Part shown: positions 39,741-56,650 of the stretch, piece after piece
How positions within the stretch are numbered: the first letter of the stretch is position 1
Layout: each line of letters opens with the position of its first letter
From: Falsiroseomonas algicola
GTDB lineage: Bacteria; Pseudomonadota; Alphaproteobacteria; Acetobacterales; Acetobacteraceae
DNA length: 64,000 bases
Direction: 5' to 3'
Assembly: GCF_011040385.1 (NCBI RefSeq)
Contig: NZ_JAAIKB010000002.1
Location: 310,001 to 374,000, forward strand
The notes under the pieces: generated by a model
Seen by the model: the letters and a program-made list of their open reading frames with translations, nothing else
The model's database searches: none
What the model was told of the DNA's origin: nothing
Position numbers and translations under genes: made by a program

Positions 39741-39772
39741 TGCCCGACCAAGAGACCGGAGGAAACAACGAT

Positions 39773-40828: not shown

Positions 40829-40829
40829 G

Positions 40830-42011
40830 ATGGTGATCGAGGCAGGCAGGGACGGCGCGGCGGGACGGCGGCTGCGGCTCGGCATGGTCGGCGGCGGGCA
40901 GGGAGCCTTCATCGGCGCCGTGCACCGCATCGCCGCCCGGCTGGACGACCGGTACGAACTGGTGGCGGGCGCCTTGTCCTCCGACCCCGATCGCGCCCGC
41001 GCCAGCGCCGCCGACCTGCACATCGCGCCAGACCGTGCCTATGCGGATTTCGAGGCGATGGCGGAGGCCGAGGCCGCGCGGCCCGATGGCATCGACGTGG
41101 TCGCGATCGTCACGCCGAACCACCGGCATGCCGGGCCCGTGCAGGCCTTCGCGCGGCGCGGCATCCATGTGATCTGCGACAAGCCGCTGACGCATCGGCT
41201 GGAGGATGCGGAGGCGCTGGCGGCGATGCTGGCGCGCACCGACGTCATCTTCGGCCTGACGCACAACTACACGGGATATCCCCTGGTGCGGCAGGCGCGG
41301 GAGATGGTGGCGCAAGGTGACCTCGGCGCGCTGCGCGTCGTGCAGGTGGAATACCCGCAGGACTGGCTGACGACGCGGCTGGAGGAGACGGGCCAGAAGC
41401 AGGCGGCTTGGCGCACCGATCCCGAACGCTCCGGTGCCGCGGGCTGCGTCGGCGATATCGGCACCCATGCCTTCAACCTCGCGGAATTCGTCACCGGGCT
41501 TCGCTGCGAAAGCCTGGCGGCGGAATTGACGCGCTTCGTCCCCGGCCGGCGGCTGGACGACAACGCCCACATGATGCTGCGCTTCGCCGGCGGCGCGCGG
41601 GGCATGCTGTGGTCGTCCCAGGTCGCGCCGGGGAACGAGAACGGCCTCAAGCTCCGCGTCTATGGGGAGAAGGGCGGGCTGGAGTGGCATCAGGAACAGC
41701 CGAACACGCTGCGCCATACGCCCTTCGGGGAACCCTCCCGCCTGATCAGCCGATCCGGCCCCGGCTCCTCCGCCGTGGCCGGCCATGCCAGCCGCATCCC
41801 GGCCGGGCATCCCGAGGGATACCTCGAGGGTTTCGCGCAGCTCTATCGCGACCTGGCGGAGCAGATCTCGGCGCGGATCGATGGGCGCGCGCCCGATCCC
41901 GCCAGCCTGCTGGTGCCCGGCATCGCGGAGGGGCTTCGCGGCATGCGCTTCATCGCGGCCGCGGTGGCGTCCAGCCAGCGCGGCGCCGCCTGGACGGACA
42001 TCCCCGCCTGA
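40830..42011 (+). CDS. Gfo/Idh/MocA-family dehydrogenase
   Basis: 393 residues with LGMVGGGQGAFIG at the N-terminus, the motif CDKPLTHRLEDAE near 115, and GCVGDIGTHAFNLAEF near 205, as in inositol dehydrogenase-like proteins. It starts one base after the epimerase stop. The longer frame to 40596 is only readthrough. It is more like the myo-inositol/glucose-oxidoreductase branch than the copy at 34181. It probably oxidises the imported sugar before epimerisation (inference). Confidence 0.9.
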   Translation: MVIEAGRDGAAGRRLRLGMVGGGQGAFIGAVHRIAARLDDRYELVAGALSSDPDRARASAADLHIAPDRAYADFEAMAEAEAARPDGIDVVAIVTPNHRHAGPVQAFARRGIHVICDKPLTHRLEDAEALAAMLARTDVIFGLTHNYTGYPLVRQAREMVAQGDLGALRVVQVEYPQDWLTTRLEETGQKQAAWRTDPERSGAAGCVGDIGTHAFNLAEFVTGLRCESLAAELTRFVPGRRLDDNAHMMLRFAGGARGMLWSSQVAPGNENGLKLRVYGEKGGLEWHQEQPNTLRHTPFGEPSRLISRSGPGSSAVAGHASRIPAGHPEGYLEGFAQLYRDLAEQISARIDGRAPDPASLLVPGIAEGLRGMRFIAAAVASSQRGAAWTDIPA

Positions 42012-43492
42012 TGCATCTCGGCCTCGATCTCGGCACCTCCGGCGTGAAGGCCGTGCTGACCGGCGCGGCGGGGGAGGTGCTGGCCCAGGCGACGGCGCCG
42101 CTCGGCCTCTCCAACCCGCATCCGCTGTGGAGCGAGCAGGACCCTGGCGACTGGTGGGACGCGACCATCGCCGCCATTACCGCGCTGGGACGCCAGCATG
42201 ACCTTTCGGGCCTGCGCTGCATCGGCATCGCCGGGCAGATGCATGGCGCGGTGCTGCTCGACGCCGGCGACCAGATGCTGCGCCCCGCCATTCTGTGGAA
42301 TGACGGCCGCAGCCATGCCGAATGCCGCGCGCTGGAAGCGGCGGAGCCGCGGTCCCGCGCCATCACCGGCAACCTCGCCATGCCGGGCTTCACCGCGCCG
42401 AAGCTGCTCTGGGTACGGCACCATGAGCCCGACATCTTCGCCCGCACCCGCCGCGTGCTGCTGCCGAAGGACTGGTTGCGCCTGCGCCTGACCGGGGAGG
42501 CGGTGTCGGAGATGTCGGACGCCGCCGGCACGCTGTGGCTCGACGTGGCGGCAAGGCGCTGGTCGCCCGCGATGCTGGCGGCGACGGGGCTCGACCTTTC
42601 CCACATGCCGCGTCTGGTGGAGGGCACGGAGGTCACCGGCCGGCTGCGCGCCGATGTCGCGGCGCAACTCGGCCTCCCGGCAGGCATCCCGGTGGCGGGC
42701 GGGGCCGGGGACAATGCGGGCGGCGCGGCCGGCATCGGATGCGTGGCGCCCGGCGATGCCTTCGTCTCGCTCGGCACCTCCGGCGTCGTCTTCGTCAGCG
42801 ACAAGGGTTTCCTGCCCGACCCCGAACGCGCCGTGCACGCCTTCTGCCACTGCCTGCCAGATACCTGGCACCGCATGTCGGTCATCCTCTCCGCCGCCGC
42901 CTCCCTCGCCTGGCTGGCGCGGGCCACGGCCACGCCGGAAGCGGCGCTGCTGGCGGAGATGGAAGGGGAGGGGCTGCGCGCCGAAGGGCGTCTCGTCTTC
43001 CTGCCCTACCTCTCCGGGGAGAGGACGCCGCACAACGACGCCGCCGCCACCGGCACCTTCTTCGGCCTGCATGGCAGCACCAGCCGTGCGGACCTGACCC
43101 GCGCGGTGCTGGAAGGCGTCGCCTTCGCGCTGGCCGATGGGGTGGAGGCACTGGAGGCCGCGGGACCGCGCATCCCGTCGCTGACCGCGATCGGCGGCGG
43201 CGCGCGCAGCGCCGCCTGGCTCCGCATCCTCGCCGCCACGCTCGGCCGGCCGATCCTGGCGACGGCAGGCGCGGAGGTCGGCCCCGCACTCGGTGCCGCA
43301 AGGCTGGCGCGCATCGCCTGCGGCGACGCTACCGTGGCGGAGGCCTGCGTGAAGCCGCCCGTCGCCGCCTGCCACGAGCCGGATCCCGCGCTGGCCGCCT
43401 CGCTGCTGTCCCGGCGAGAAGCCCACCGGCGCCTCTACCCGGCACTGCGTGACGTTTTCGCTGACACCGCCCGCATGGAACAGCCCACATGA
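42011..43492 (+). CDS. xylB: Xylulokinase
   Basis: A 493-aa FGGY-family kinase that phosphorylates D-xylulose. [13 protein letters not shown] starts the protein, [10 protein letters not shown] lies near 75, the catalytic Asp is likely D234 in GAGDNAGG, and [15 protein letters not shown] is near 395. It overlaps the upstream dehydrogenase stop in TGATG and the xylose isomerase start in ATGA. Adjacent XylA supports the xylulokinase assignment. Confidence 0.93.
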
Positions 43493-44802
43493 GCACCGCC
43501 TTCGACCACCTGCCGCATCTCCGCTACGCCGGGCCCGATGCCACGGGGCCTTTCGCGCTGCGCCACTACGACGCCAACCGCGTCGTGCTGGGCCGCACCA
43601 TGGCGGACTGGCTCCGCCCCTCCGTCGCCTATTGGCATTCCTTCGTCGGCACCGGCGCCGATCCCTTCGGCGCGCCGACCATGGACCGCCCCTGGTTCGG
43701 CGCCGCCGATGGAATGGAGGGCGCCCGCATGAAGGCCGGGGCGGCCTTCGCCTTCATGGAGCGCCTCGGCCTGCCCTTCTTCTGCTTCCACGACCGGGAC
43801 GTGGCGCCGGAAGGGGCCACGCTGCGGGAGAGCAACGCCAACCTCGACCGGATGCTGGAGGTGGTGCAGACCCACATGGCCCGCACCGGCATCGCGCTGC
43901 TCTGGGGCACGGCCAACCTCTTCAGCCATCCCCGCTACATGGCCGGCGCCGCCACCAACCCGGACCCGGAGGTCTTCGCCTTCGCCGCCGGCCAGGTGAA
44001 GCATGTGCTGGAGGCGACGCACCGCCTGGGCGGCGCCAACTACGTGCTCTGGGGTGGTCGCGAAGGCTACGACACCCTGCTCAACACCGATCTGGCGCGT
44101 GAGGATGCGCAGCTCGGACGCTTCCTCAACCTCGTCGTCGAGCACAAGCACCGGATCGGCTTCAAGGGCACCATCCTGATCGAGCCCAAGCCCATGGAGC
44201 CCACCAAGCACCAGTACGACCGCGATGTCGCGACGGTCTATGGCTTCCTCGCCCGGCACGGCCTCGCGAAGGAGGTGAAGGTGAACATCGAGGCCAATCA
44301 TGCGACGCTTGCCGGCCACAGCTTCGAGCATGAGATCGCGACCGCCGGCGCGCTCGGCATCCTGGGCTCGCTCGACATGAACCGTGGCGATCCGCAGAAT
44401 GGCTGGGACACCGACCAGTTCCCGAACAACGCGCAGGATCTGTCGCTGGCAATGCTGGAGGTGGTGCGCGCCGGTGGCCTCGGCACGGGCGGCATCAACT
44501 TCGACGCCAAGATCAGGCGCCAGAGCATCGATGCCGAGGACCTGATGCACGCCCATGCCGGCGGCCTGGATTGCTGCGCCCGCGCCCTGCTGATCGCGGA
44601 ACGCATCGTGCAGGACGGCACGCTCGACCGGCTGCGGGCCGAACGCTATGCCGGCTGGGACAGCGCGACGGGGCGGGCGATCCTGGAAGGCCGCATGGGG
44701 CTCGATGCGCTGGCGGCGCATGCGGAAGCCGGTGGCGCCGGCCCTATGCCCCGCAGCGGCCGCCAGGAAGCGCTGGAGAACCTGGCCGCGCGCTTCGCCT
44801 GA
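43489..44802 (+). CDS. xylA: Xylose isomerase
   Basis: A 437-aa class II (long) xylose isomerase converting D-xylose to D-xylulose. Catalytic H101 and D104 lie in FCFHDRDV. The signature [16 protein letters not shown] and the metal-binding stretches [32 protein letters not shown] and [20 protein letters not shown] are all present. It is the last gene of the sugar operon and gives the locus its best substrate clue: D-xylose, alongside another sugar handled by the dehydrogenases. Confidence 0.96.
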
Positions 44803-44831: not shown

Positions 44832-46469
44832 ATGGCACGGCGGATCGAGCTTCTGGTCGGCGCGGCCATCGGCCTTGGCATGACAGCCCGGGCCGCGGCT
44901 GATGGCGGCGCGGATTTCCTGCTGGCACTCAGCGCCGGGCGGCTGCGCGTCATGGGCGCGCCCTCCCTCGCCGCGATGCTTCCGATCCGCGACAGCAACG
45001 CCTTCACCGATGATTTCGCGCGCAGCGAGATCCTGGACCGCGTCGCCATCCCCGTCTTCTTCGGCGCGGCTGCCTGCGACCCCCGCCATTCGATCGAGGC
45101 CTTGCTCGGCCGCATCCGGGACGCCGGCTACCAGGGCGTCGCGAACTTCCCCACCGCCATCCACCACGACGGCGCATTCCGCGCGGCGCTGGAACAGGCT
45201 GGACTCGGCTTCGGGCGGGAGGTCGAGCTGATCCGCGCCGCACCGCGCTTCGGCCTCGCGACGCTCGGCTACGCCAAGACCCGCGCGGAGGTCGATGCGC
45301 TGGTGGAAGCGGGGGTGCAGCGGCTCTGCCTCAACTTCGGCTGGAACTCCGGCGGCAGCCAGGGCGTGCCGAGCGGCGTGCCGATCGACCAGGCGGCCGA
45401 ACGCGCACGCCGCGTCTTCGCGCAGGTCCGACGCCGCGCGCCTGGCACCATCTGCCTGGTGGAGGGCGGGCCGATCGTCGGGCCGGTCCACCTGCTGCAC
45501 GTCTGCGATGCCTCCCGCGCCGATGGCTATGTCGGCGGTTCCACGCTGGACCGCCTGCCGCTCGAGATGTCGGTCATGCAGACCACCTCCGCCTTCAAGA
45601 CGGCAGCGCTGCTCCGTGATGAACCGGCTGGGGAGGCGGAGCGGCTCCCCGGCCTCGCCGGCCGCTCGCAGGCCATGCGCCAGCTGGCCGCGCGCGTGGC
45701 CCGGCTGGTGGCGACCGACCTGCCCATCCTTCTTGAGGGCGAGCCCGGATCGGGGCGCACCACGCTGGCACGCGCCATCCACCAGGGCAGCCGCCGCGCC
45801 GGCCCGCTGACGCTCCTCGACGCACGTGAGGATATCGGGTCGCGCTTGTTCGGAGAGGGCGGGCCCACCGCCCTGCTGGCGCTGCGCCAGAGCACCTTGG
45901 TGCTGGAGAACGCCGATGCGCTGCCGCCCACGCTGCGCACGAAGCTGGCTGACTGGATCGAGCGCGGCAGCTTCGAACGCTTCGCCAAGGCCGGCGAACG
46001 CCTGCCCCGCGCGCGCCTCATCCTCACCCATCCGCCGGGCGGTGAGGCGCTGGCCCGGTCGCTTTCCGCCCAGCGCCTCGTGGTCCCCCCGCTGCGCGAC
46101 CGGCTCGATGACCTGCCGCTGCTGGCACGCACGATGCTGCGCGGCCTGCACCGCGGCCCGACGGCGCTGGACCCCGCCGTGCTGCGCTTCCTGATGGCGC
46201 GGAACTGGCCCGGCAATCTGCGCGAGCTCGCCCATGTGCTGACGCGAGCGGCGACCGATGCGCCCGGCGGCCGGATCACGCTGGCGGTGCTGGAGGCGCA
46301 GCTGGGCCCCGCCACCGCCGTCGCCGCACCCTCGCCGGCGGATGAGCGCGCCTGGATCCTCGACGCGCTGCGCCGGAACCGCTTCCGCCGGGGAGAGACG
46401 GCGGCCTTCCTCGGCATCGCACGCAAGACGCTCTACAACCGGATGCGGCGCCTCGGGCTGGAGACCTGA
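44832..46469 (+). CDS. TIM-barrel sensor fused to a degenerate AAA+ domain and Fis-type HTH
   Basis: 545 residues in three parts. Residues 1 to about 260 form a PEP-hydrolase-like TIM barrel (AAIGLGMTARAAADGGADF, GYQGVANFPTAI, LVEGGPIVGPVHL). About 275-480 resemble the sigma-54 AAA+ domain, but Walker A is GEPGSGRT (Lys to Arg), Walker B is LVLENAD and GAFTGA is absent, so ATP hydrolysis and sigma-54 contact are unlikely. The C-terminus is a Fis/TyrR-type HTH (GETAAFLGIARKTLYNRMRRLGL). It probably senses a small molecule and regulates the Liv/Tm-1 cluster downstream. Confidence 0.87.
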   Translation: MARRIELLVGAAIGLGMTARAAADGGADFLLALSAGRLRVMGAPSLAAMLPIRDSNAFTDDFARSEILDRVAIPVFFGAAACDPRHSIEALLGRIRDAGYQGVANFPTAIHHDGAFRAALEQAGLGFGREVELIRAAPRFGLATLGYAKTRAEVDALVEAGVQRLCLNFGWNSGGSQGVPSGVPIDQAAERARRVFAQVRRRAPGTICLVEGGPIVGPVHLLHVCDASRADGYVGGSTLDRLPLEMSVMQTTSAFKTAALLRDEPAGEAERLPGLAGRSQAMRQLAARVARLVATDLPILLEGEPGSGRTTLARAIHQGSRRAGPLTLLDAREDIGSRLFGEGGPTALLALRQSTLVLENADALPPTLRTKLADWIERGSFERFAKAGERLPRARLILTHPPGGEALARSLSAQRLVVPPLRDRLDDLPLLARTMLRGLHRGPTALDPAVLRFLMARNWPGNLRELAHVLTRAATDAPGGRITLAVLEAQLGPATAVAAPSPADERAWILDALRRNRFRRGETAAFLGIARKTLYNRMRRLGLET

Positions 46470-47062
46470 CCGGCGGCGGGCGCCGCCCAGCCCAGCGCCT
46501 CGCCCCCCTCGATCGCGACATGGCCGGCAAGGTCAGCCCACCAGGCCTGCGGATCGGCCGGTGGCGCCAGCCCGGGATGCAGCAGGACGCGGCGCAGCCC
46601 GACGCTGATCGCGGCATCGACGGCGTGGCGGTCGGTCGCGCAAGCGATGGCCGCGAAGCCTGATTGCGTGAGGCGCTGGAGAAGGCGGAACTCGGCTTCC
46701 GCCCTGTAGCCCACTGCGGCGAGCGCGGCCGCGCTCTCCCCCTCGAACATCTGCACGGTCGGGTAGTTGACCACGGTTGTGATGCCCCCCTGGCGCAGCG
46801 CCGCCGCCAGGTCCGCGAGGCGCAGGAAGGGGTCGCAGGCAAAGATGCCCGCGATGGGCCGGGCGCCGCGGAAGGGCCGGCGCGCGGCCAGCGCCGCGCG
46901 CAGCGCGCCGTTGATGTCGAGCACCGGCAGCAATGCGACCAGCGGCCAGGTATCGGGTGGGAAGGGGGCAAGCGCCGGCAGGAAGACGGTGCGCACGCGC
47001 CGCGCTGGCGCCAGCCCCTCGAGGGTCGCTGCTGGTTCCAGGAAAGTCGGCTGCTGGGGCAT
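46433..47062 (-). CDS. Diverged TIM-barrel (PEP-hydrolase-like) paralogue
   Basis: 209 residues. The central stretch (GIFACDPFLRLADLAAALRQGG, ITTVVNYPTVQMFEG, then LLQRLTQSGFAAIACATDRHAVDAAI) aligns by eye with the same part of the gene at 53068 ([21 protein letters not shown]) and with the sensor half of 44832. It is about 65 residues shorter than the 53068 protein and lacks its N-terminal [11 protein letters not shown] region and C-terminal glycine-rich loop. The 3' end overlaps the convergent regulator by 37 bases. It may be a ligand-binding relic or accessory. Confidence 0.7.
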   Translation of the reverse strand: MPQQPTFLEPAATLEGLAPARRVRTVFLPALAPFPPDTWPLVALLPVLDINGALRAALAARRPFRGARPIAGIFACDPFLRLADLAAALRQGGITTVVNYPTVQMFEGESAAALAAVGYRAEAEFRLLQRLTQSGFAAIACATDRHAVDAAISVGLRRVLLHPGLAPPADPQAWWADLAGHVAIEGGEALGWAAPAAGQVSSPRRRIRL

Positions 47063-47178
47063 GACCCAATCTTACCCATTATTGCCTGGAAGTCACCTTG
47101 CGGCCCGCCATCCCCGGCCGCCATGGTGTGCCCCGCAAGCGGCGCGATGACGCCGTCCAGGGAGGATCGGTCCAAAGC

Positions 47179-48054
47179 ATGGATCTCGCGGCGACCATCG
47201 TGCTGAACGGGCTGACGCTCGCCGCGCTGTATTTCGTCGTGGCCAGCGGCTTCTCGCTCATCTTCGGGCTCATGCGCGTGGTGAACATGGCGCATGGCGC
47301 GATGTATCTCGTGGCGGGCTATGTCGGTTACGCGGTGTTCGAACCGCTCTATGATCGCGATGTCTGGTACGCCTGGTATGCAGGCCTCGCCGCCGGCGTC
47401 GCCTTCGCCGCGGTCTTCGGCGCGGCGGTGCAGGTGGCGCTGCTCGGCTGGATGCAGGGGCAGGAGCTGCGCCAGGCGCTGGTCACGATCGGCCTCTCCA
47501 TCATCGTGGCCGACCAGCTCCTCGCCTTCTATGGCGGCACGCCGCGGCAGTTCTTCGCGCCGGACGCCATCTTCGGCGCGACGCAGCTGCCGGGGATCGG
47601 CGGCTACCCGACCTTCCGCCTGGTGCAGATCGGCGTCGCGGTCGCGGTCGGCATCGGGCTCTGGCTGCTGCTGAACCGGACGAGGCTCGGCATCATGATC
47701 CGTGCCGGCGTGGATGACCGGCAGATGCTGGGCGCCTGCGGTGTCAACGTGCCGCTGATCGGCATCGCGGTTTTTGCCCTTGGCGCGGCGCTGGCCGGGC
47801 TCGGCGGCGTCATCGGCGCCACGGCGCAGCCGCTAGCCATGGGGGCGGATGGGCGCTTCCTGCTGATTTCGCTGGTCGTCGTCATCGTGGGCGGCATGGG
47901 CAGCGTGACCGGCACGGCGGTGGGCGCGGTGCTGATCGGCCTCGCGGAGCAGATCGGCCAGGCGCTCTTTCCGACCTATTCGGTCATTCTCACCTTCGTC
48001 ATCATGGTCGCCGTGCTGGCGCTGCGGCCGCAGGGGATCCTCGGCCGTGCATAG
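47179..48054 (+). CDS. Branched-chain amino-acid-type ABC permease (LivH)
   Basis: 291 residues, very hydrophobic with about eight membrane segments. LIFGLMRVVNMAHGAMYLVAGYVGY is the LivH hallmark, and LAGLGGVIGA with VVVIVGGMGSVTGTAVGAVLIGLAEQ follows. The ATG at 47179 lies behind GGGAGGATCGG; the frame upstream to 47098 has no membrane character. It overlaps the LivM gene by 8 bases. It is the first gene of an eight-gene operon. Confidence 0.92.
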   Translation: MDLAATIVLNGLTLAALYFVVASGFSLIFGLMRVVNMAHGAMYLVAGYVGYAVFEPLYDRDVWYAWYAGLAAGVAFAAVFGAAVQVALLGWMQGQELRQALVTIGLSIIVADQLLAFYGGTPRQFFAPDAIFGATQLPGIGGYPTFRLVQIGVAVAVGIGLWLLLNRTRLGIMIRAGVDDRQMLGACGVNVPLIGIAVFALGAALAGLGGVIGATAQPLAMGADGRFLLISLVVVIVGGMGSVTGTAVGAVLIGLAEQIGQALFPTYSVILTFVIMVAVLALRPQGILGRA

Positions 48055-49105
48055 CCGCGCGATCCTGGCAACACTGGTCGTGCTCGCGCTGCTGCTGGCG
48101 CTGCCCTGGCTGCTGCCGCAATTCCTGCCGGCGAACCAGGCGCAGTTCTGGACGGCCAACATCCTCGGCCGCGCCATCGTCTTCGGCATCATCGCCATGT
48201 CGCTGACCTTCCTCGCGACCTATGGCGGCTTCATCTCGCTCGCGCAGATGATGGTGGCGGGTGTCGCCGGCTACACGCTGGCGATCTTCGTGGATGGCGC
48301 ACTGCCGCGAATCGTCGGCGGCTGGGGCTATGCCGCGGCCATCCCGCTCAGCCTGGTGGCCGCCACGGTGATGGGGCTGGTGGTCGGCGCCATCAGCGTC
48401 CGCACGCGCGACATCTACCTGCTGATGATCACGCTGGCACTCGCCATGGGCGTCTTCCGCTTCATCGAGACGAACATCGCCTGGTTCAACGGCTATGAGG
48501 GCATCCGCAACGTCGTTGGCCCCACGCTGTTCGGGCTCGATTTCCGCAACGCCTTCGTCTTCTACCACGTGGCGCTCGGCACGGCCGCAGCTCTCTTCCT
48601 CGGCATCCTCTACCTCGTGAAGACGCCCTTCGGCCTGGTGCTGCAGGGTATCCGGGACAATCCGCGGCGCGTCGCGGCACTCGGCTATTCGGTCGGGCTG
48701 CACCGCATCGCCGCCTTCGGCGTGGCGGGCTTCATCGCGGGCTGCGGCGGCGTGCTGTCCACCATCTACAACATCGGCATCTCGCCGGGCTCGATCGGGC
48801 TCGGCGCGACGGTGAACATCCTGATCATGAGCGTCGTCGGCGGTCTCGGCCATCCCGCGGGCGCCTTCATCGGATCGCTCATCTTCACCGTCTTCGACAC
48901 CTTCGCGGCCACGATCTACGACCGCGACCGCTTCAACACCCTCATCGGCCTCGTCTTCCTCGTGATCGTGCTGGTCTCGCCGGATGGCGCGATCGGCATC
49001 GGCGCGAAGCTGCGACGTTTGCTGGGGGCGGGGCGGAACCATCCGCGCGGGGCAGAAGGCTCCCGCGCGTCCCAACAACAAGCAGGAGAGGAAACGACGC
49101 CATGA
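48047..49105 (+). CDS. Branched-chain amino-acid-type ABC permease (LivM)
   Basis: 352 residues starting with GTG inside the end of LivH. GGFISLAQMMVAGVAGYTLAI, VRTRDIYLLMITLALA, and the coupling region GIRDNPRRVAALGYSVGLHRIAAFGVAGFIAG identify the LivM family. The C-terminal tail is basic and hydrophilic. The stop overlaps the receptor gene in ATGA. Substrates of this family include amino acids, but also urea and aromatic acids. Confidence 0.92.
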   Translation: MHSRAILATLVVLALLLALPWLLPQFLPANQAQFWTANILGRAIVFGIIAMSLTFLATYGGFISLAQMMVAGVAGYTLAIFVDGALPRIVGGWGYAAAIPLSLVAATVMGLVVGAISVRTRDIYLLMITLALAMGVFRFIETNIAWFNGYEGIRNVVGPTLFGLDFRNAFVFYHVALGTAAALFLGILYLVKTPFGLVLQGIRDNPRRVAALGYSVGLHRIAAFGVAGFIAGCGGVLSTIYNIGISPGSIGLGATVNILIMSVVGGLGHPAGAFIGSLIFTVFDTFAATIYDRDRFNTLIGLVFLVIVLVSPDGAIGIGAKLRRLLGAGRNHPRGAEGSRASQQQAGEETTP

Positions 49106-50367
49106 CCATCATGATCACCCGCCGCGCCGCGCTGCTGGGCGGTGCCGGCCTTGCCGCCGGCAGCCTCGCGCTGCCTGCCATCGCGCAGAACGCGCCGATC
49201 CGCATCGGCGGCCTCACTACCCTGGAGGGACCCTTCGCCACTGGCGGGCAGGATGCCTTCCGCTGCGTGCAGATGGAGCTGGAGCGCATCAACCACACCA
49301 TCGGCGGCCGCCGTATCGAATTCATCCGCGAAAGCTCCAACGCCCAGGCGGATGTCGCGCTGGCCCGCGCGCGCAAGCTGATCGAGCAGGACAATGTCGA
49401 CATCATCCTCGGCCCGCTTTCGGGTGCGGAAGGCATTGCGCTGCGCGACTACTCCCGCACCCTCACGGGCAAGACCATCGTCAACGGATCCTCGGGTGCG
49501 TCCGACACGACGCTGCGCAATCCATCGCCCAACTTCTTCCGCTTCTCCACGGATGGCACGCAATGGATGGCAGGCCTCGGCCGGCATATCCATGGCATGG
49601 GCATCCGCGACGTCGCCATCACCGCGGGCGACTACGCCTTCCCCTACGCGCAGGTCTTCGGCTTCAACCTGGAATTCTGCCGCCTGGGCGGCCGCGTGAC
49701 GCAGTACTGGGCGCCACTCGGCACGACCGACTTCACCTCCCAGATCGCGCAGATCAACCGCTCCAATGCCGGCGCGATCGTCATCGTGCATGGCGGCACG
49801 GATGGCCTCGCCTTCATGACGCAATACGCGCAGGCTGGCGGCAGCAAGCCGCTGGTCGGCGGATCGATCATGGCGGATCAGACCATGCTTTCCGCCCGCG
49901 GCCCGCATCGCCGCGTCATGATGGGCATGCTTTCCGGCGGGCCCATCGCCGACATCATCGATGACCCCACTTGGAACGACTTCGTCGCGCGCTATCGCCG
50001 CCGTTGGGCGAATGAGGGCGGCTTCGCATCCCCCTCCATCCACGGCGTCAACTACGTCACGAACCTCTACGGCATCCTCGCAGGCCTGCGCGCGACGAAT
50101 GGCGACCTGTCGGGCAACCAGGCGGCCTTCCAGCGCGCGATGGCGGCGGCGGAGGTCACGGCGCCGACCGGTGCCGCGGTCAAGCTCGACCACAACCGTC
50201 AGGCCATCTCCGACATCTTCCTGAACCGGATCGAGGAGCGTGGTGGCAGCGCCGTGGTGGTGGCCTTCGACCGTGCCCGGGCCGTCAATCAGACGCTCGG
50301 CATGCCGGAGGCGCAGTTCCTCGGCCTCGGCTCGCCGTCGCGCGACAACGCAGGCTGCGTGGCCTGA
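49102..50367 (+). CDS. LivK-type periplasmic substrate-binding protein
   Basis: 421 residues with a twin-arginine-like leader (ITRRAALLGGAGLAAGS, cleavage after AIA-Q). The mature part starts PIRIGGLTTLEGPFATGGQDAF, the type I receptor fold. KTIVNGSSGASDTTLRNPSPNFFRFS and the AIVIVHGGTDGLAFMTQ stretch are typical of the amide/branched-chain family. AGGAGAGGAAACGACGCC precedes the ATG. It would deliver the ligand to LivH/LivM; the ligand could be an aromatic or amino acid. Confidence 0.9.
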   Translation: MTIMITRRAALLGGAGLAAGSLALPAIAQNAPIRIGGLTTLEGPFATGGQDAFRCVQMELERINHTIGGRRIEFIRESSNAQADVALARARKLIEQDNVDIILGPLSGAEGIALRDYSRTLTGKTIVNGSSGASDTTLRNPSPNFFRFSTDGTQWMAGLGRHIHGMGIRDVAITAGDYAFPYAQVFGFNLEFCRLGGRVTQYWAPLGTTDFTSQIAQINRSNAGAIVIVHGGTDGLAFMTQYAQAGGSKPLVGGSIMADQTMLSARGPHRRVMMGMLSGGPIADIIDDPTWNDFVARYRRRWANEGGFASPSIHGVNYVTNLYGILAGLRATNGDLSGNQAAFQRAMAAAEVTAPTGAAVKLDHNRQAISDIFLNRIEERGGSAVVVAFDRARAVNQTLGMPEAQFLGLGSPSRDNAGCVA

Positions 50368-50409
50368 CGTGACGCGCGTGGCAGGCATCGCCGGCGGCCT
50401 CGTCTCGCC

Positions 50410-51156
50410 ATGACGGCTCCGGCCATCCGCCTGCGCGGTGTCAGCCGTCGCTTCGGCGCGCTGCAAGCCCTGCGTGACGTCAGCTTCGACGTCATGCCGG
50501 GCGAGCGGCGCGCCGTGCTCGGCCCGAACGGCGCGGGGAAGACGACGCTGTTCAACACCATCTGCGGCGATTTCCCACCAACGTCCGGCAGCATTGAACT
50601 GTTCGACCGGGACATCACGCGGCTCCGCCCGCATGAACGCACGCGGCTCGGCATCGGGCGCACCTACCAGACCTCGCTGCTCTTCAACGGCCTCAGCGTG
50701 CTGGAAAACCTCTTCATCGCGGTGCGCGGCGTGCGGCCGAACCGCTTCTCATTCCTCCGCCCCTCGGCTGGCGATGGCGGCATGGCGAAGGCGCGCGACC
50801 TCGCGGATCGCATGCGCCTGTCGCATCTGATCGACGCGGAGGTGGTGAACCTCAGCCACGGCCAGCGCCGTCAGCTGGAGGTCGGCATGGCGATGGCGGG
50901 CGACCCGCGCGTGCTGATGCTGGACGAGCCCGCCGCCGGCCTCTCACCGGGCGATCGCCCCGAATTGCTGCGTCTGCTACGTGAACTGCCGCGCACGCTG
51001 ACGCTCGTGCTGATCGAGCACGACATGGACATCGCGCTGCCTGCCGCGGACATCGTCACCGTCATGAAGGATGGCGAGGTGGTGGTGGAAGCGCCGCCCG
51101 ACCGGATCGAGGACGATCCCGTCGTCCAGGCCATCTATCTCGGGGACGGGCATTGA
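50410..51156 (+). CDS. Liv-type ABC ATPase (LivG)
   Basis: 248 residues. Walker A GPNGAGKTT near residue 38, the LivG-specific LGIGRTYQTSLLFNGLSVLENL, signature LSHGQRRQLEV, Walker B VLMLDEPAAGLSPGD and the H-loop LIEHDMDIAL. Note PGD in place of the common PEE/PAE after AGLS. The stop overlaps the LivF start in TGATG. Confidence 0.93.
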   Translation: MTAPAIRLRGVSRRFGALQALRDVSFDVMPGERRAVLGPNGAGKTTLFNTICGDFPPTSGSIELFDRDITRLRPHERTRLGIGRTYQTSLLFNGLSVLENLFIAVRGVRPNRFSFLRPSAGDGGMAKARDLADRMRLSHLIDAEVVNLSHGQRRQLEVGMAMAGDPRVLMLDEPAAGLSPGDRPELLRLLRELPRTLTLVLIEHDMDIALPAADIVTVMKDGEVVVEAPPDRIEDDPVVQAIYLGDGH

Positions 51157-51857
51157 TGCTGGCGGTGCGCGACCTTCATGTGCGCTTCGGCCAGGCGCAT
51201 ATCCTGCAGGGCGTGGCGCTGACGGTCGGCGCGCAGCCACTCGCCATCGTCGGCCGCAACGGCATGGGCAAGACCACGCTCTGCCAGGCGGTGATGGGCC
51301 TGGTTGCGGCCTCGGCCGGCGAGATCGCTTTCGATGGCCAGCCGATCCAAGGCCTGCCCCCCTTCCGCATCGCGCGGCGCGGCATCGCGCTGGTGCCGCA
51401 GGGGCGGCGCACCTGGCCTTCCCTGTCGGTGCACGAACATCTGCGGCTCGTCGCGACGCGCGGCGCGCGCTGGACCATCGATCGCGTCTACGAGACCTTC
51501 CCGCGCCTGGCGGAGCGCCGCCGCAACGGGGGCACGGAACTCTCAGGCGGGGAACAGCAGATGCTGGCTATCGCCCGTGCGCTGCTGATGAACCCCAGGC
51601 TCGTCATCATGGACGAGCCGAGCGAGGGCCTGGCGCCCGTGATCGTGGAACAACTCATCGGCCTGCTCCGCGGCCTGCCCGCGGATGGCATGAGCCTGCT
51701 GCTGGTCGAACAGAATCTGCGCGTCGCGACGGCGGTGGCGGAGGAGGTTGCCATCATGGTCACTGGCCGCATCGCCGCGACCATGCCGGCACGCCAACTT
51801 GCCGAGGATACGGATCTGCAGCGCCGCTACCTCGGCGTCGCGGCCGGCGGACATTGA
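51156..51857 (+). CDS. Liv-type ABC ATPase (LivF)
   Basis: 233 residues. Walker A GRNGMGKTT near 33, VPQGRRTWPSLSVHEHL, signature LSGGEQQMLAIARALLM, Walker B LVIMDEPSEGLAPVI and the C-terminal RRYLGVAAGGH typical of LivF. The start was placed at the ATG 51156; a TTG one codon earlier is less likely. It is followed after 11 bases by the Tm-1-like gene in the same operon. Confidence 0.93.
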   Translation: MLAVRDLHVRFGQAHILQGVALTVGAQPLAIVGRNGMGKTTLCQAVMGLVAASAGEIAFDGQPIQGLPPFRIARRGIALVPQGRRTWPSLSVHEHLRLVATRGARWTIDRVYETFPRLAERRRNGGTELSGGEQQMLAIARALLMNPRLVIMDEPSEGLAPVIVEQLIGLLRGLPADGMSLLLVEQNLRVATAVAEEVAIMVTGRIAATMPARQLAEDTDLQRRYLGVAAGGH

Positions 51858-51868
51858 CGGAGGAGAGG

Positions 51869-53065
51869 ATGGCAAGGGTCTATGTCATCGGCACGATGGA
51901 CACGAAGGCGGAGGAACTGCGCTTCGCCGCCGCCTGCGTGCGCCGCGCGGGTGCCGACCCGGTGCTGGTGGATGTCGGGACCAGGGGCGTGGGGCAGGGC
52001 GCCGATGTGACGGCGGCCGAGGTCGCTGCCTGCCACCGGGACGGAGCCGCCGCCGTGCTCGGCCTTGATGATCGCGGCCGTGCCGTGGCTGGCATGGCGG
52101 AAGCGCTGACGGCCTGGTTGTTGGCGCGTGGGGACATCGGCGCGGTGCTCGGGCTTGGCGGTTCGGGCAACACGGCACTCGTCACCCAGGCCATGCGCGC
52201 CCTGCCGATCGGCACGCCGAAGCTGATGGTCAGCACCGTCGCCGCCGGGAATGTCGCGCCCTATGTCGGTCCCTCCGACATCGCCATGATGTATTCGGTG
52301 GTGGATGTCGCGGGCATCAACGCCATCTCACGCCGTGTCATCGCCAATGCCGCCCATGCGGCCGCCGGCATGGCGTTGACCGCGCCGCCCGCCGCCTCCG
52401 GCACCGAGAAGCCCGGCATCGGCCTGACCATGTTCGGCGTCACCACCGCCTGCGTGACGCAACTGCGGGAGGCGCTCGAGCCTTCGCATGAATGCTACGT
52501 CTTCCACGCCACCGGCGCTGGCGGCCGCAGCATGGAGAAGCTTGCTGATTCCGGCTTGGTTTCTGCGTTGATCGACATCACGACGACGGAGGTGCCCGAC
52601 TTCCTCGTGGGTGGCGTCTTCCCCTGCGATGCCGATCGCTTCGGTGCGCCGATCCGCACGCGCCTGCCCTATATCGGCAGCGTCGGCGCCGTGGACATGG
52701 TCAATTTCGGCGCGAAGGAGACGGTGCCGCCGCAATTCGCGGGCCGCAACCTTTACGTCCACAACCCGCAGGTGACGCTGATGCGGACGACGGCGGCGGA
52801 GAATGTGGAGATCGGCCGCTTCATCGTGGAGCGGTTGAACCGGATGGAAGGCCCGGTACGGTTCCTGCTGCCGCTCGGCGGCGTCTCGGCCATCGATGTG
52901 CCGGGCATGCCCTTCCATGATCCTGCCGCCGACGCGGCGCTGTTCGACACCATCCGCGCCGGCTTTGTGCCTGCGCCCCACCGCAGGCTGATCGAGGTCG
53001 AGGCCGCGATCAACGACCCTGCCTTCGTGCAGGCCGTGCTGGCGGCCTTCCGGGAGATTGCCTGA
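51869..53065 (+). CDS. Tm-1-like ATP-binding (UPF0261) protein
   Basis: 398 residues. [19 protein letters not shown] is the start of the UPF0261 family, and [21 protein letters not shown] with [17 protein letters not shown] are its conserved core. The family corresponds to the N-terminal half of the plant Tm-1 resistance protein. GGAGGAGAGG lies directly before the ATG. It is encoded next to the TIM-barrel partner at 53068, the second half of the plant protein. Its biochemical reaction is not established. Confidence 0.9.
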
Positions 53066-53067
53066 CC

Positions 53068-53898
53068 ATGCCCCGCTTCACCCGCAGCGAGTTGCTCGCC
53101 CGCTTCAACGGCATGGTCGCACGGCGAGAGCCCATCATCGGTGGCGGCGCCGGCACCGGCCTCTCCGCCAAATGCGAGGAGGCCGGCGGCATCGACCTGA
53201 TCGTCATCTACAATTCCGGCCGCTACCGCATGGCCGGCCGCGGCTCGCTCGCGGGGCTGCTCGCCTATGGCAGCGCGAATGAGATCGTGAAGGAGATGGC
53301 GCGGGAGGTGTTGCCGGTGGTGCAACGCACGCCGGTCATCGCCGGCGTGAACGGCACCGACCCCTTCGCCATCATGGATCACCTGCTGGATGAGCTGAAG
53401 GCGCTGGGCTTCGCCGGCGTGCAGAACTTCCCGACCGTCGGCCTGATCGACGGCGTGTTCCGCGCGAACCTGGAGGAGACAGGCATGGGGTTCGGGCATG
53501 AGATCGACATGATCCGCCTGGCCCACGCGAAGGACATGCTGACCACCCCCTATGTCTTCAACGCGGAGGAAGCGGCGGAGATGGCGAAGGCCGGCGCGGA
53601 CATCCTGGTGGCGCATCTCGGCCTGACCACCGGCGGCGCCATCGGCGCGCAGACGGCCCTCAAGCTCGCGGACTGCCCTGTGCTGATCGACGAATGGGCC
53701 GCGGCCGCGCGCCGCGTGCGCAAGGACATCATCGTGCTCTGCCATGGCGGCCCGATTGCGACGCCGGAGGATGCCACCTTCATCCTGCGCAACACCGCGA
53801 ACATCAACGGCTTCTACGGCGCTTCCTCCATGGAACGCCTGCCGACCGAAACCGCGCTGGTCGAGCGCACCCGCGAGTTCAAGTCGATCTCCTTCTGA
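53068..53898 (+). CDS. TIM-barrel PEP-hydrolase-family protein (Tm-1 C-terminal half homologue)
   Basis: 276 residues. The N-terminal [36 protein letters not shown] region, [21 protein letters not shown] and the phosphate-type loop region [13 protein letters not shown] are characteristic of the PEP-hydrolase-like TIM-barrel family. It follows the UPF0261 gene by 2 bases. Two further versions occur upstream: the sensor half of 44832 and the short 46433 protein. Catalytic activity on phosphoenolpyruvate has been described for the family name, but the true substrate is unclear. Confidence 0.9.
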
Positions 53899-53910
53899 GG
53901 GATTCACGCC

Positions 53911-54831
53911 ATGGCCCGCGCCTATGCCTCCACCATCCTCGACGCGCCGGTCGAGGCCGTCTGGGATCTGGTCCGCGACTTCAACGGATTGCCAGCCTGG
54001 AACGCCGCCATCGCGCGGTCGGAGATCGAGGATGGCCTCGATTCCGACGTAGTCGGCTGCGTCCGGCGCTTCCATTTGCCCGACGGCACACTGGTGCGCG
54101 AACGCCTGCTGAGCCTGAACGACCGCGACTACAGCTTCACCTACAACTTCGAGACGCCGGCCTTCCCGGTGACGAACTACCTGGCCCGCATGCGGCTGCT
54201 GCCGGTGACCGATGGAGAGAAGACCTTCGCGGAATGGGAGGCGACTTTCGACGAGGCGCCGGAGGATGCCGGCAAGTATGTGGACATCGTCTCCAACGCC
54301 GTTTTCCAGGCCGGATGGAATTCCCTGAAGCCTCGCGTGGCCGGCCGCGCCGCGCCGGCGGGTGCGCAGCGCTGGAGCGGCTTCCCGCCCAGCAAGGCCT
54401 GGTGCAGCACGGTCATCGATGCACCGGTGGAAGCGGTATGGTCCATCATCCGCGACTTCGCCGGCATGGGCGGCTGGCATGACGATATAACGCGGATGCA
54501 GATGCTGGATGGCGCGCGCAGCGACAAGGTCTCCGGCACGCGCGACTTCCTGTTCGGCGCGGGGCATTTGAATGAGAAGCTGCTGCACCTCGACGATACG
54601 GAGCGCAGCTATTCCTACTTCATCACGAAATCCGAGCTTCCCTGGATGCAGTACGTCAGCGGCCCGCGGCTCTGGCCCGTGACGGATGGCAACCGCACCT
54701 TCGGCACCTGGTTCGGCGACTGGGTGGCATCGCCGCGCGACGATGCAGCGCTGATCCCGAACACGGAGCAGAACGTCTACCTCAAGGCCCTCCACACCGT
54801 GGCGCGGCGGTGTTCCAGGGCCTTGGTGTGA
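53911..54831 (+). CDS. Tandem SRPBCC (START-like) protein, 3' end altered by IS
   Basis: 306 residues in two SRPBCC repeats: about 1-150 (LDAPVEAVWDLVRDFNGLPAWN) and about 165-306 (IDAPVEAVWSIIRDFAGMGGWH). Each is a hydrophobic-ligand pocket of the MxaD/polyketide-cyclase-like type. It is the last gene of the Liv/Tm-1 operon. The stop (TGA) lies inside the left inverted repeat of the IS1182-type element, so the native C-terminus has been replaced. The last helix is nearly complete, so the protein may still fold. Confidence 0.85.
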   Translation: MARAYASTILDAPVEAVWDLVRDFNGLPAWNAAIARSEIEDGLDSDVVGCVRRFHLPDGTLVRERLLSLNDRDYSFTYNFETPAFPVTNYLARMRLLPVTDGEKTFAEWEATFDEAPEDAGKYVDIVSNAVFQAGWNSLKPRVAGRAAPAGAQRWSGFPPSKAWCSTVIDAPVEAVWSIIRDFAGMGGWHDDITRMQMLDGARSDKVSGTRDFLFGAGHLNEKLLHLDDTERSYSYFITKSELPWMQYVSGPRLWPVTDGNRTFGTWFGDWVASPRDDAALIPNTEQNVYLKALHTVARRCSRALV

Positions 54832-56263
54832 TACCAACGCCCTGGGCCTGTTGAAGAATTGCCGCTGGGGTCTGGATGGCGCAGCGGGCGGGTGATGAGC
54901 CGGTTGGTGACGGGTGACGATGCTGGGTAGAGCCGGGCGCAGCGCCGACGGCGAGCGCGGCGAGGAGCGCCATCATGGCGGCCCTTGCCAGCCGCTTGAG
55001 GTTGATGACGGCGGCGGTGAGGAAGGCCTGGCTCTGCATGTTGGCCAGCCCCCGCCGGATGGCGCGGGCGAGGCCGTGCCAGGTCTTGGCCTCGCCGTGG
55101 ACGCCTTCGACCTGGCGACGGTGGCAGCGGTAGAGGGTGCGCTCGCGTGGCCCCCAGCCGGCGTATTTGCGGCGTGCCCGCAACAGGGCCGGATGGTCCT
55201 TGTGCAGCAGGATGGCGCGTCGCCGCATGGTGGTGCTGAAGCAGATCGCGCGTAGGCAGCAGGGTTCGCAGTCCGGGATGCGGGCGCGATAGTGCTGGAA
55301 GCCGTCGCTGTCGGGCACGCCGTGCGGACGGAGGACCTTCCCGGCTGGGCAGCGGACAATGCGGTGCTTGGCGTCCAGCTTGAAGCGCCGCTCCGGGATG
55401 GTGCCTCGCTTGGGTGGCCGTTCGGCCTTGGCCGGGATCACCGCCTCGATCCCCCGCGCCTCGAGGGCGGCAAGGACGCAGGTGATGGCGTAGCTCGCAT
55501 CCATCGTGGCGATCCTGATGGGCACCCTGGTGGTGGCGCGGACGGCGTCGAACTGGCCTTCGACGTTTCGGGTGTCATGCTGCGCGCCGGTGGTCACCGC
55601 CACGTCGAGCACCACGCCGGCCTCGGCATCGACCGCCGTGTGCTGTTTGTAGGCGGGCTCCACCCGGCGGGCCCGGTTGCTGGTTGCCAGGCTGGCATCC
55701 GGGGCGGTCCGGCAGACCGGCTCCGTCGGGCCGTTCGCCGCCTCGACCGCATCCGCGTGCTTGCGCGCGATCGCCTCCCAGCTGACGTCGGCACGGACCA
55801 GCGAGCTGTCGATGTGCACCACCTCGCCCTTGGCGATGCCGGCCGCCACGCAGGCCTCGACGGTGCGCGTGAAGACCAGCCGGAACCGCTCCGCACCCCA
55901 GCGCTGACGGATGCGCGTCAGGCTGGAGTGGTCGGGCAGCGCCTCGGTGAGCCCGTAGCCGGCAAACCAGCGGATGGCGATGTTCACAGCCGCCTCCCGC
56001 ATCAGTCGCCGGTCGTGCACGATGCCGAGCAGCAGGCCGGCCAGCATCAGGCGGACCGCCGCCTCAGGGTCGATCCCAGGCCGCCCGCTGCCGGCCGCAT
56101 AGCAATCCGCGACCTCCGTCCGTAGCCAGCCGAGGTCGAGAACACGGTCCACACGGACCAGCACATGGTCGCCCGGAATCAGCTCGCGCAGTGAGCCAGC
56201 GAACACCAACTCCCCCTGATCCCGCGCCCGACGTCCCAACATCCCGACCCGCCGCAACAGCAT
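54782..56263 (-). CDS. IS1182-type DDE transposase
   Basis: 493 residues. DDE candidates are Asp in VVHIDSSLVRADVSW, Asp in IATMDASYAI and Glu in QVEGVHGEAKTWHG, the last being the typical IS1182/IS4-like E region. N-terminal LFAGSLRELIP-like stretch (VFAGSLRELIPGDHVLV) and DPEAAVRLMLAGLLLGI fit the family DUF772-type domain. The start at 56263 lies inside the right inverted repeat. The frame reads out through the left repeat and stops in the host SRPBCC gene, so the last 15 or so residues are host-encoded. Confidence 0.85.
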   Translation of the reverse strand: MLLRRVGMLGRRARDQGELVFAGSLRELIPGDHVLVRVDRVLDLGWLRTEVADCYAAGSGRPGIDPEAAVRLMLAGLLLGIVHDRRLMREAAVNIAIRWFAGYGLTEALPDHSSLTRIRQRWGAERFRLVFTRTVEACVAAGIAKGEVVHIDSSLVRADVSWEAIARKHADAVEAANGPTEPVCRTAPDASLATSNRARRVEPAYKQHTAVDAEAGVVLDVAVTTGAQHDTRNVEGQFDAVRATTRVPIRIATMDASYAITCVLAALEARGIEAVIPAKAERPPKRGTIPERRFKLDAKHRIVRCPAGKVLRPHGVPDSDGFQHYRARIPDCEPCCLRAICFSTTMRRRAILLHKDHPALLRARRKYAGWGPRERTLYRCHRRQVEGVHGEAKTWHGLARAIRRGLANMQSQAFLTAAVINLKRLARAAMMALLAALAVGAAPGSTQHRHPSPTGSSPARCAIQTPAAILQQAQGVGITPRPWNTAAPRCGGP

Positions 56264-56318
56264 CGAATCAGGGCGACGCCACTTCTTCAACAGGCCCAGG
56301 GCGTTAACATCACACCAA
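54823..56318 (-). mobile_element. IS1182-family-like insertion sequence
   Basis: About 1.5 kb with 36-bp terminal inverted repeats at 54823-54858 and 56283-56318. The outer 10 and inner 23 bases match, with three mismatches between them. It carries one transposase gene on the minus strand. No target-site duplication is evident at the ends. It separates the tandem SRPBCC gene from an IS256-type remnant. Confidence 0.82.
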
Positions 56319-56650
56319 AAAGCCTTCGGCAAACCCGGCGCGGTTCATAGACGTCCAACGGCCGAGAGGATGCGGCGCTGCGCCTTGCCCGCATGGGCGA
56401 GCGCGTTGCGGGTGAAGTGGAAACGGCAACGCTGCCAGGATCCCGCAGCACCTTCGCCACGGCGGCCTTCAGGCCCTCATGGACGTCGGAGAGCAGCAGC
56501 TTCACGCCGGCCAAGCCGTGCCGCTTCAGGGTAAGGTCGGTCGACGCACTGCGTCGACGAGCCAGAAGGGCTCCGCCTGGGAACTGCCGCCCACCAAGCC
56601 GAGGACTTCGCGCCACCCGTCGGCGCGCCCCACAGCTTCATTGTCTTCCG
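56319..56650 (-). pseudogene. IS256-family (mutator) transposase remnant
   Basis: Fragments in shifted frames on the minus strand align by eye to the central part of IS256 transposases. They are EAVGRADGWREVLGL, then GLAGVKLLLSDVHEGLKAAVAKVL, then WQRCRFHFTRNALAHAGKAQRRILSAV. At least two frame changes separate them, and neither end is present. A 19-base inverted repeat (GTCGACGCA, centre C, TGCGTCGAC) near 56540-56558 sits at one of the breaks. No inverted-repeat ends of the element are recognisable. Confidence 0.78.

Follow-up and report, generated by a model that had tools for sequence, protein, structure and literature searches.

Described systems related to the locus

Plant Tm-1 proteins join a UPF0261 domain and a triosephosphate isomerase (TIM) barrel in one chain. 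In this study we analyzed a locus of Falsiroseomonas algicola where both domains are encoded by separate neighbouring genes, downstream of the genes for a five-subunit importer of the Liv type (LivH, LivM, LivK, LivG and LivF) and upstream of a gene for a tandem SRPBCC protein. The locus lies in a 64,000-nucleotide (nt) stretch of contig NZ_JAAIKB010000002.1 (positions 310,001 to 374,000), here referred to as the window. The analysis confirmed the cassette as a coherent unit that is widely conserved. We tentatively read it, with a confidence slightly short of even, as a dedicated uptake-and-activation cassette, in which import would be followed by phosphorylation by the UPF0261 protein, processing by the TIM barrel and sensing by altered copies of this barrel.

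UPF0261 was reported from 491 of 504 bacterial genomes having the TIM-barrel gene by Yang et al. 2016 (PMC5028733), and the available sections of that paper also describe correlated evolution of the two genes, their fusion in plants and the presence of the fused Tm-1-like form in nearly all sequenced land plant genomes. The split pair as a counterpart of Tm-1, as claimed for the window by an earlier sequence-only reading, therefore holds but had already been published and is not new. Excerpts of further papers mention the COG5441/COG5564 pair in fungi (PMC8963296), treat COG5441 as a member family of the UPF0261/TIM pair (PMC2364660) and list a Brucella UPF0261 gene among the genes whose mutants were attenuated (PMC2364660, PMC2858072). 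As far as its text was accessible, the open-licence literature searched gave no function for the pair. COG5564 is presumably its other family.

The window shares the two domains with plant Tm-1, and its UPF0261 protein is up to 42% identical in structure matches. It differs in carrying two genes, 2 nt apart, with no fused C-terminal TIM barrel, and in having the pair within a transporter operon with its own regulator and no viral context. The pair of Mll9387 (structure 2p10) is likewise encoded by adjacent genes, and the loci of Mesorhizobium and NGR234 also carry a regulator and a gene similar to PEPm, the third TIM-barrel gene of the window (see below); the Mesorhizobium gene at this locus we take to be Mll9387. 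In the stretches compared, these two loci differ from the window by a cupin instead of the SRPBCC protein and by the absence of a Liv set and of a LivF fusion, and NGR234 has a sugar-type ATP-binding cassette (ABC) transporter.

Composition and conservation of the cassette

A Pfam scan of the ten genes of the locus (Table 1) confirmed the families of the run LivH-LivM-LivK-LivG-LivF-UPF0261-PEP_hydrolase-SRPBCC given by the sequence-only reading, and its spacing of 2 nt between the UPF0261 and TIM-barrel genes was exact. The gaps from LivH through the SRPBCC gene are -8, -4, 42, -4, 11, 2 and 12 nt, so that a single operon of these genes is plausible. The UPF0261 gene starts with an ATG at 51869; its reading frame (51857-53065) matched UPF0261 (3.7e-60) and UPF0261_C (7.9e-86), and the protein scored 203.3 bits for PF06792 and 287.2 bits for PF23189 at a cut-off of 27 each. 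In total, the F. algicola genome contains one UPF0261 gene and three PF09370 genes, every one of them within the cassette locus.

Conservation was counted in the best 80 of 153 confirmed UPF0261 loci, a sample that leans to close relatives and excludes the window's own match (L001). All five Liv genes (tblastn matches of at least 25% identity) lay within 9 kb in 34 of these loci, among them a locus from an Acidimicrobiia metagenome-assembled genome (L054); the full set was also present in Thermomicrobium roseum and Variovorax paradoxus. LivF was found directly upstream of UPF0261 in 31 loci, the TIM-barrel gene (PEPH, PEP standing for phosphoenolpyruvate) directly downstream in 75 and an SRPBCC relative within 9 kb in 53. 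Five loci had no adjoining PEPH: the contig of L018 ends inside it, L043 and L047 carry it elsewhere in the locus, and it was not found in the available stretch of L040 and L051. The Liv genes and the UPF0261/TIM pair are thus conserved together outside the window, contrary to what would have refuted the sequence-only reading, and the logic of import, processing and sensing that it had suggested is supported.

In a phylum-wide sample of 398 genomes PF09370 was present in 27 genomes including F. algicola, and all 27 had UPF0261. Matched by eye, 28 of 28 PEPH genes above 420 bits plus both genes at ~297 bits adjoin a UPF0261 gene in this sample. Among 14 named control genomes both families occurred in one, Haloferax volcanii. 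Within the order of the window, UPF0261 was above the cut-off in 46 of 200 genomes.

Further arrangements were seen on plasmids. Within 19 kb of a Terrarubrum flagellatum plasmid (L082) two UPF0261-PEPH pairs, a regulator and the genes of two sugar ABC sets are found. On a plasmid of Agrobacterium vitis (L091, 8971-10877) a HAD hydrolase gene directly follows UPF0261 in the place of PEPH, resembling a kinase-phosphatase pair. The cassette of a T. roseum plasmid (L117) is located beside a fumarylacetoacetate hydrolase gene and genes annotated as PEP/pyruvate-binding and PEP-utilizing, which recall two-component dikinases.

Three TIM barrels at one locus

PEPH matched PF09370 over its full length (3.2e-128, model positions 2-267 of 267). 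The regulator upstream of the operon is composed of PEP_hydrolase (PF09370, 1.1e-70), a sigma-54-type AAA domain and HTH_8. The third barrel, PEPm, is encoded by a minus-strand gene that the sequence-only reading had overlooked. Its match is partial (41.3 bits at a cut-off of 33.8, 1.4e-10, positions 75-180 of 267), and the six best matches of its structure model (predicted local distance difference test, pLDDT, 92.4) were chains of the Mll9387 barrel 2p10 (query TM-score, TMq, 0.70-0.75). A spurious antisense frame was rejected because of this confident fold and because, in an alignment of 29 rows, identity to the window protein ranged from 19 to 74%.

From 93 loci (the 80 loci, 12 plasmid loci and the window) 90 PEPH, 33 regulator and 35 PEPm sequences were obtained. 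Two of the PEPm sequences were divergent (L074 and L082), the latter being annotated as 'hypothetical protein'. PEPm was present in all 33 regulator loci. It stood alone only in L008 and L031, whose contigs begin close to the regulator gene or within it. Additionally, four loci outside the 93 carried both genes (L095, L105, L106 and L107). Regulator and PEPm converge within 100 bp in 29 of the 33 loci, with an overlap of 37 nt in 12 of these including the window.

H183 and H226 of PEPH were invariant (90/90 each). The regulators carried N at the first position in 32/33 and E at the second in 33/33 sequences, as well as N at T187 and A at E37 (both 33/33); R52, R54, S60, N120, E145, S253 and R257 were unchanged in all 33. 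PEPm retained N71 in 32/33, D98, N120 and E145 in 33/33 and H183 in 19/33 sequences. It had R52 in 4/33 and R54 in 2/33, where the alignment is weak, and its C-terminus was mostly gapped at H226. This pattern fits PEPH as an enzyme and the regulator as a ligand sensor without the histidine pair; since both invariant histidines are replaced, the regulator barrel probably senses the product and does not convert it. PEPm, as a shortened third copy, may bind the ligand or the regulator.

Putative control of the operon

The GAFTGA loop is a motif of sigma-54 activators. A GAFTGA-like motif was absent in 30 of 33 regulators, window included, and kept in L045, L047 and L058; none of 17 loci had a strict -24/-12 site within 130 nt upstream of LivH. 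Control by sigma-54 was rejected for the window on both grounds. Of the earlier claim of an upstream regulator with a TIM-barrel sensor, the PF09370 domain was therefore confirmed, but the protein is not a normal sigma-54 activator.

A direct repeat, ACCCAATCTTACCCA, with a spacing of 10 nt separates PEPm and LivH. As read from the alignment, the pattern RCCCAN4TACCC was exact in 13 of 17 related loci and differed by one base in the other four. The core is single-copy in the 6.56 Mb genome at up to one mismatch, where the reversed pattern gave no match; in the window it matched once at up to two mismatches, against 0.01 matches expected. A degenerate form, counted anywhere in the locus, occurred in 29 of the 39 loci that carry a regulator or PEPm, compared with 4 of the 74 loci lacking them (Fisher p 2e-14, kinship ignored). 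The 39 loci comprised the 33 regulator loci, the two cut loci and the four loci outside the 93, whereas L112, whose regulator is broken and which gave no PEPm match, was counted among the 74. In L090, one of the four exceptions, the repeat is located 95 nt upstream of UPF0261, and in NGR234 between PEPm and UPF0261. Of the further plasmid loci, L118 had the repeat and L115, L116 and L117 lacked it. Relative to the start of PEPm, it fell between -60 and +300 nt in 20/35 loci, some of the starts used being too long. We infer that the repeat at 47064-47078 is the predicted target of the regulator, and probably its only one.

The UPF0261 protein and its fusion to LivF

The structure model of UPF0261 (pLDDT 89.5, predicted TM-score, pTM, 0.69) matched Tm-1 (3wrx and others) with 35-42% identity and structure 9mpy with 36% identity (Foldseek E ~1e-36). 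According to its title, 9mpy shows acetovanillone bound to Saro_1862, a UPF0261 domain protein of Novosphingobium aromaticivorans; among the UPF0261 structures found, no other small ligand is mentioned in a title. In sequence, the window protein and Saro_1862 aligned with 278.9 bits (5.8e-82). The part of PMC13101465 at hand describes a single-component kinase, MarK, which starts the catabolism of acetovanillone in Novosphingobium by a pathway otherwise very similar to Hpe/Acv; we infer that MarK and Saro_1862 are one protein.

The window thus shares the UPF0261 fold with Saro_1862/MarK, to which a small aromatic ligand is bound in the Saro_1862 structure, and differs by its TIM-barrel partner and Liv importer. 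In the two-component aromatic kinases HpeHI and AcvAB, of which HpeHI has been compared with CreHI and PpsAB in the literature, phosphorylation opens catabolism, as far as the excerpts describe it, and the same is proposed here for the cassette. A difference is that the window UPF0261 protein had no match to a PEP-utilising family in Pfam. The Hpe/Acv-type pathway combines genes for a kinase, a three-component carboxylase and a phosphatase; no carboxylase or phosphatase family was present among the ten genes scanned, the rest of the window and the genome not being searched. By this analysis UPF0261 is a putative small-molecule kinase. It may act near the inner face of the importer, because its relative holds acetovanillone and natural fusions of LivF and UPF0261 exist.

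In all 14 loci tested for such a fusion, LivF and UPF0261 formed a single open frame of 721-792 residues; the count is not a frequency, since 12 of the 14 regions were picked for long frames. The linkers comprised ~81-118 residues, with a T-R-W or N-R-W motif in 13 of 14. ABC_tran, UPF0261 and UPF0261_C were found in one chain in the four fusions scanned with Pfam. Examples are Sneathiella chungangensis (L074) and plasmids of Variovorax paradoxus and Shinella zoogloeoides. In the window LivF and UPF0261 are separate genes with 11 nt between them. Its open frame of 665 residues is out of frame with LivF; a long open frame as such was therefore rejected as a sign of fusion, and only loci where both share one open reading frame were counted.

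In the fusion subtype a flotillin-type gene follows PEPH (L074 12026-14119, L094 11761-14673, L104 12061-14400 and L115 11087-12775), and a fusion of SRPBCC and zinc alcohol dehydrogenase was seen in L074 and L099. The 750-residue fusion of V. paradoxus (L115, 7956-10208) is annotated as 'ABC transporter permease', likely a misannotation.

Two other readings concern the fusion. In one, the locus would encode an ABC importer of a new type, by which the substrate is modified as it enters: the UPF0261 kinase would be functionally, and sometimes covalently, part of the LivF ATPase, uptake and phosphorylation would be coupled, and the phosphorylated product would be read by two catalytically altered TIM paralogues, one of them shortened. 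We consider this unlikely. In the other, UPF0261 would bind ATP but serve the importer as a regulatory or scaffold subunit, not as a kinase, which would leave the TIM barrel as the only enzyme. This would agree with the natural fusion and with plant Tm-1, which works by binding viral replication proteins according to the accessible text of PMC5028733. On the other hand, the crystal structure of a UPF0261 protein contains a small aromatic compound, and for the same organism the excerpt of PMC13101465 describes a single-component kinase acting on aromatics, which leaves the scaffold role with a small chance.

Importer, receptor and substrate

The importer has the five-subunit set of Liv-type importers, with two BPD_transp_2, two ABC_tran and one Peripla_BP_6 protein. 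Pfam and NCBIfam placed the subunits in the Liv/Urt families, below the curated cut-offs for LivH, LivM, LivG, LivF and Urt. It differs from Liv-type importers by a receptor lacking Glu226 of LivJ and, in some relatives, by an ATPase that carries a second domain in the same chain. In LivJ of E. coli, we take Glu226 to be the residue binding the alpha-amino group. In all 21 receptors it was replaced by Ser, and Tyr150 by Phe, in an alignment of low identity that may be shifted by one residue. These changes make an ordinary branched-chain amino acid an unlikely ligand. That the locus holds an ordinary branched-chain amino acid importer, with unrelated genes next door by chance, would agree with the family placement of the subunits. 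It is highly improbable in view of the position of LivF directly upstream of UPF0261 in 31/80 loci, the LivF-UPF0261 fusion and the change of Glu to Ser in 21/21 receptors.

The closest solved relatives of the receptor were 4zpj, followed by 4ey3, 4evq, 4evs and 4f06; the latter four we take to be aromatic-acid receptors of Rhodopseudomonas. Taken together, these relatives, the ligand of 9mpy, MarK and the changes relative to LivJ speak for a phenolic substrate, or a similar oxygenated one, which would be phosphorylated after import.

The gene neighbourhoods also allow a different substrate. The same cassette could serve a sugar- or cyclitol-like polyol, which would be oxidised by Gfo/Idh and isomerase-type neighbours, whereupon UPF0261 would phosphorylate a keto/enol intermediate and the TIM barrel would cleave it in an aldolase-like manner. 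In the window, sugar-isomerase-like (SPI) and Gfo/Idh (GFO) genes are located at 39740-42011, upstream of the cassette; orthologues of SPI or GFO (identity >55%) were found near 16 of the 80 loci, in several directly downstream of the cassette. Both Gfo/Idh and AP_endonuc_2 genes neighbour the pair in L054 and L079, and Gfo/Idh genes in L082, L084, L093 and L118. Sugar ABC transporters adjoin it in L082, L083, L086 and L118, the loci from Terrarubrum, Rhizobium etli, Sinorhizobium meliloti and NGR234. A PfkB kinase gene is next to it in L079. In general, Gfo/Idh oxidoreductases, xylose-isomerase-like barrels and cupins were recurrent neighbours, and the pair was also located near an amino acid-type ABC transporter in Mesorhizobium AR07 and a dicarboxylate/amino acid symporter in Haloterrigena. 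Two observations contradict the polyol: after 4zpj the receptor is nearest to those presumed aromatic-acid binders, and the one small ligand that the titles of the matched UPF0261 structures mention is an aromatic ketone. We hold it to be possible but on the unlikely side. Nevertheless, the sugar-type neighbours mean that the substrate may be sugar- or cyclitol-like, or may vary by clade, and a purely aromatic substrate fits poorly with the sugar-type transporters of other clades.

Proposed function of the cassette

The genes and their conservation, the pairing of regulator and PEPm, the repeat and the fusion are observed; for the mechanism of the uptake-and-activation cassette we propose the following course. 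The LivHMKGF importer would bring in a small molecule other than an ordinary branched-chain amino acid, which UPF0261 would phosphorylate at the expense of ATP, close to the inner side of the importer. PEPH would act on the phosphorylated product with the assistance of the SRPBCC protein, whose role as a ligand binder is a guess. The TIM barrel of the regulator would then sense the product, and the regulator, with PEPm as its partner, would control the operon through the repeat.

In favour of this proposal are the conserved gene order, the adjacency of PEPH and UPF0261, the fusion, the structure matches to Tm-1 and 9mpy, MarK, the histidine changes with R52 and R54 retained, the co-occurrence of regulator and PEPm, the repeat, and the serine and closest solved relatives of the receptor. 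Several points weigh against it. The pTM of the UPF0261 model is one of them, and another is that identity to 9mpy is only 36% and the equation of MarK with Saro_1862 is indirect. The receptor alignment has the low identity and possible shift given above. The locus test of the degenerate repeat ignores relatedness, and the degenerate repeat followed by ATG was found in five of six genomes searched, in F. algicola itself once, at another site, so that the pattern is not specific by itself. In L112 (G398:C144) an intact UPF0261-PEPH pair is accompanied by an incomplete regulator gene interrupted by stop codons, and PEPm gave no match there. Some UPF0261 genes of the 398-genome sample have no PF09370 gene beside them, those of L091 and L092 have no annotated neighbouring PEPH, and in the fused locus L099 PEPH was absent from the 16.5 kb region. 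The TIM-barrel step is thus not obligatory. Finally, the sugar-type and other transporter neighbourhoods listed above belong here as well.

Features and surroundings of the locus

Table 1. Position of the analyzed features in the window
Feature	Position	Strand	Basis or remark
Regulator with TIM-barrel sensor (PF09370), AAA domain lacking GAFTGA and Fis-type HTH	44832-46469	+	Pfam
PEPm, third, shortened TIM-barrel paralogue (PF09370)	46433-47062	-	Pfam, structure model
Direct repeat ACCCAATCTTACCCA, candidate operator	47064-47078		between PEPm and LivH
LivH-type permease	47179-48054	+	Pfam BPD_transp_2
LivM-type permease	48047-49105	+	Pfam BPD_transp_2
LivK-type receptor	49102-50367	+	Pfam Peripla_BP_6; Ser at LivJ Glu226 position
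LivG-type ATPase	50410-51156	+	Pfam ABC_tran
LivF-type ATPase	51153-51857	+	Pfam ABC_tran; UPF0261 fusion partner in some other loci
UPF0261 protein of the Tm-1 N-terminal family, putative kinase for a small molecule	51869-53065	+	Pfam, structure model
PEPH, TIM-barrel PEP_hydrolase-like protein, relative of Mll9387 (2p10)	53068-53898	+	Pfam
Tandem SRPBCC protein	53911-54831	+	Pfam Polyketide_cyc2, two stretches

The 3' end of the SRPBCC gene is abutted by an insertion sequence (54823-56318) with inverted repeats of 42 nt and 88% identity (54823-54864 and 56277-56318) and a DDE transposase gene on the minus strand (54782-56332). The DNA of the window diverges from that of its nearest relative (L002) about 6 codons ahead of the SRPBCC stop, and the protein has 306 residues in both. 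Upstream of the cassette, the region 39740-44802 contains genes assigned by eye as sugar-isomerase-like, Gfo/Idh, xylulokinase-like and xylose-isomerase-like.

Implications

The UPF0261/TIM pair is not new; what is added here is a third barrel, a candidate operator and, from other loci, the fusion of LivF with UPF0261. In the open-licence literature searched, as far as its text was accessible, the Liv cassette was not described, and neither were the fusion, PEPm and the repeat. The fusion places UPF0261 at a membrane transporter and may reveal the function of the UPF0261 family. If uptake and phosphorylation were coupled in one importer, the ancestors of plant Tm-1 would be the two enzymes with which such a system works in the cytoplasm. 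The pair is common in bacteria, and this locus offers a receptor with a screenable ligand, fusion relatives at the transporter and a single candidate operator for a reporter. With these, what the Tm-1 family does can be tested directly.

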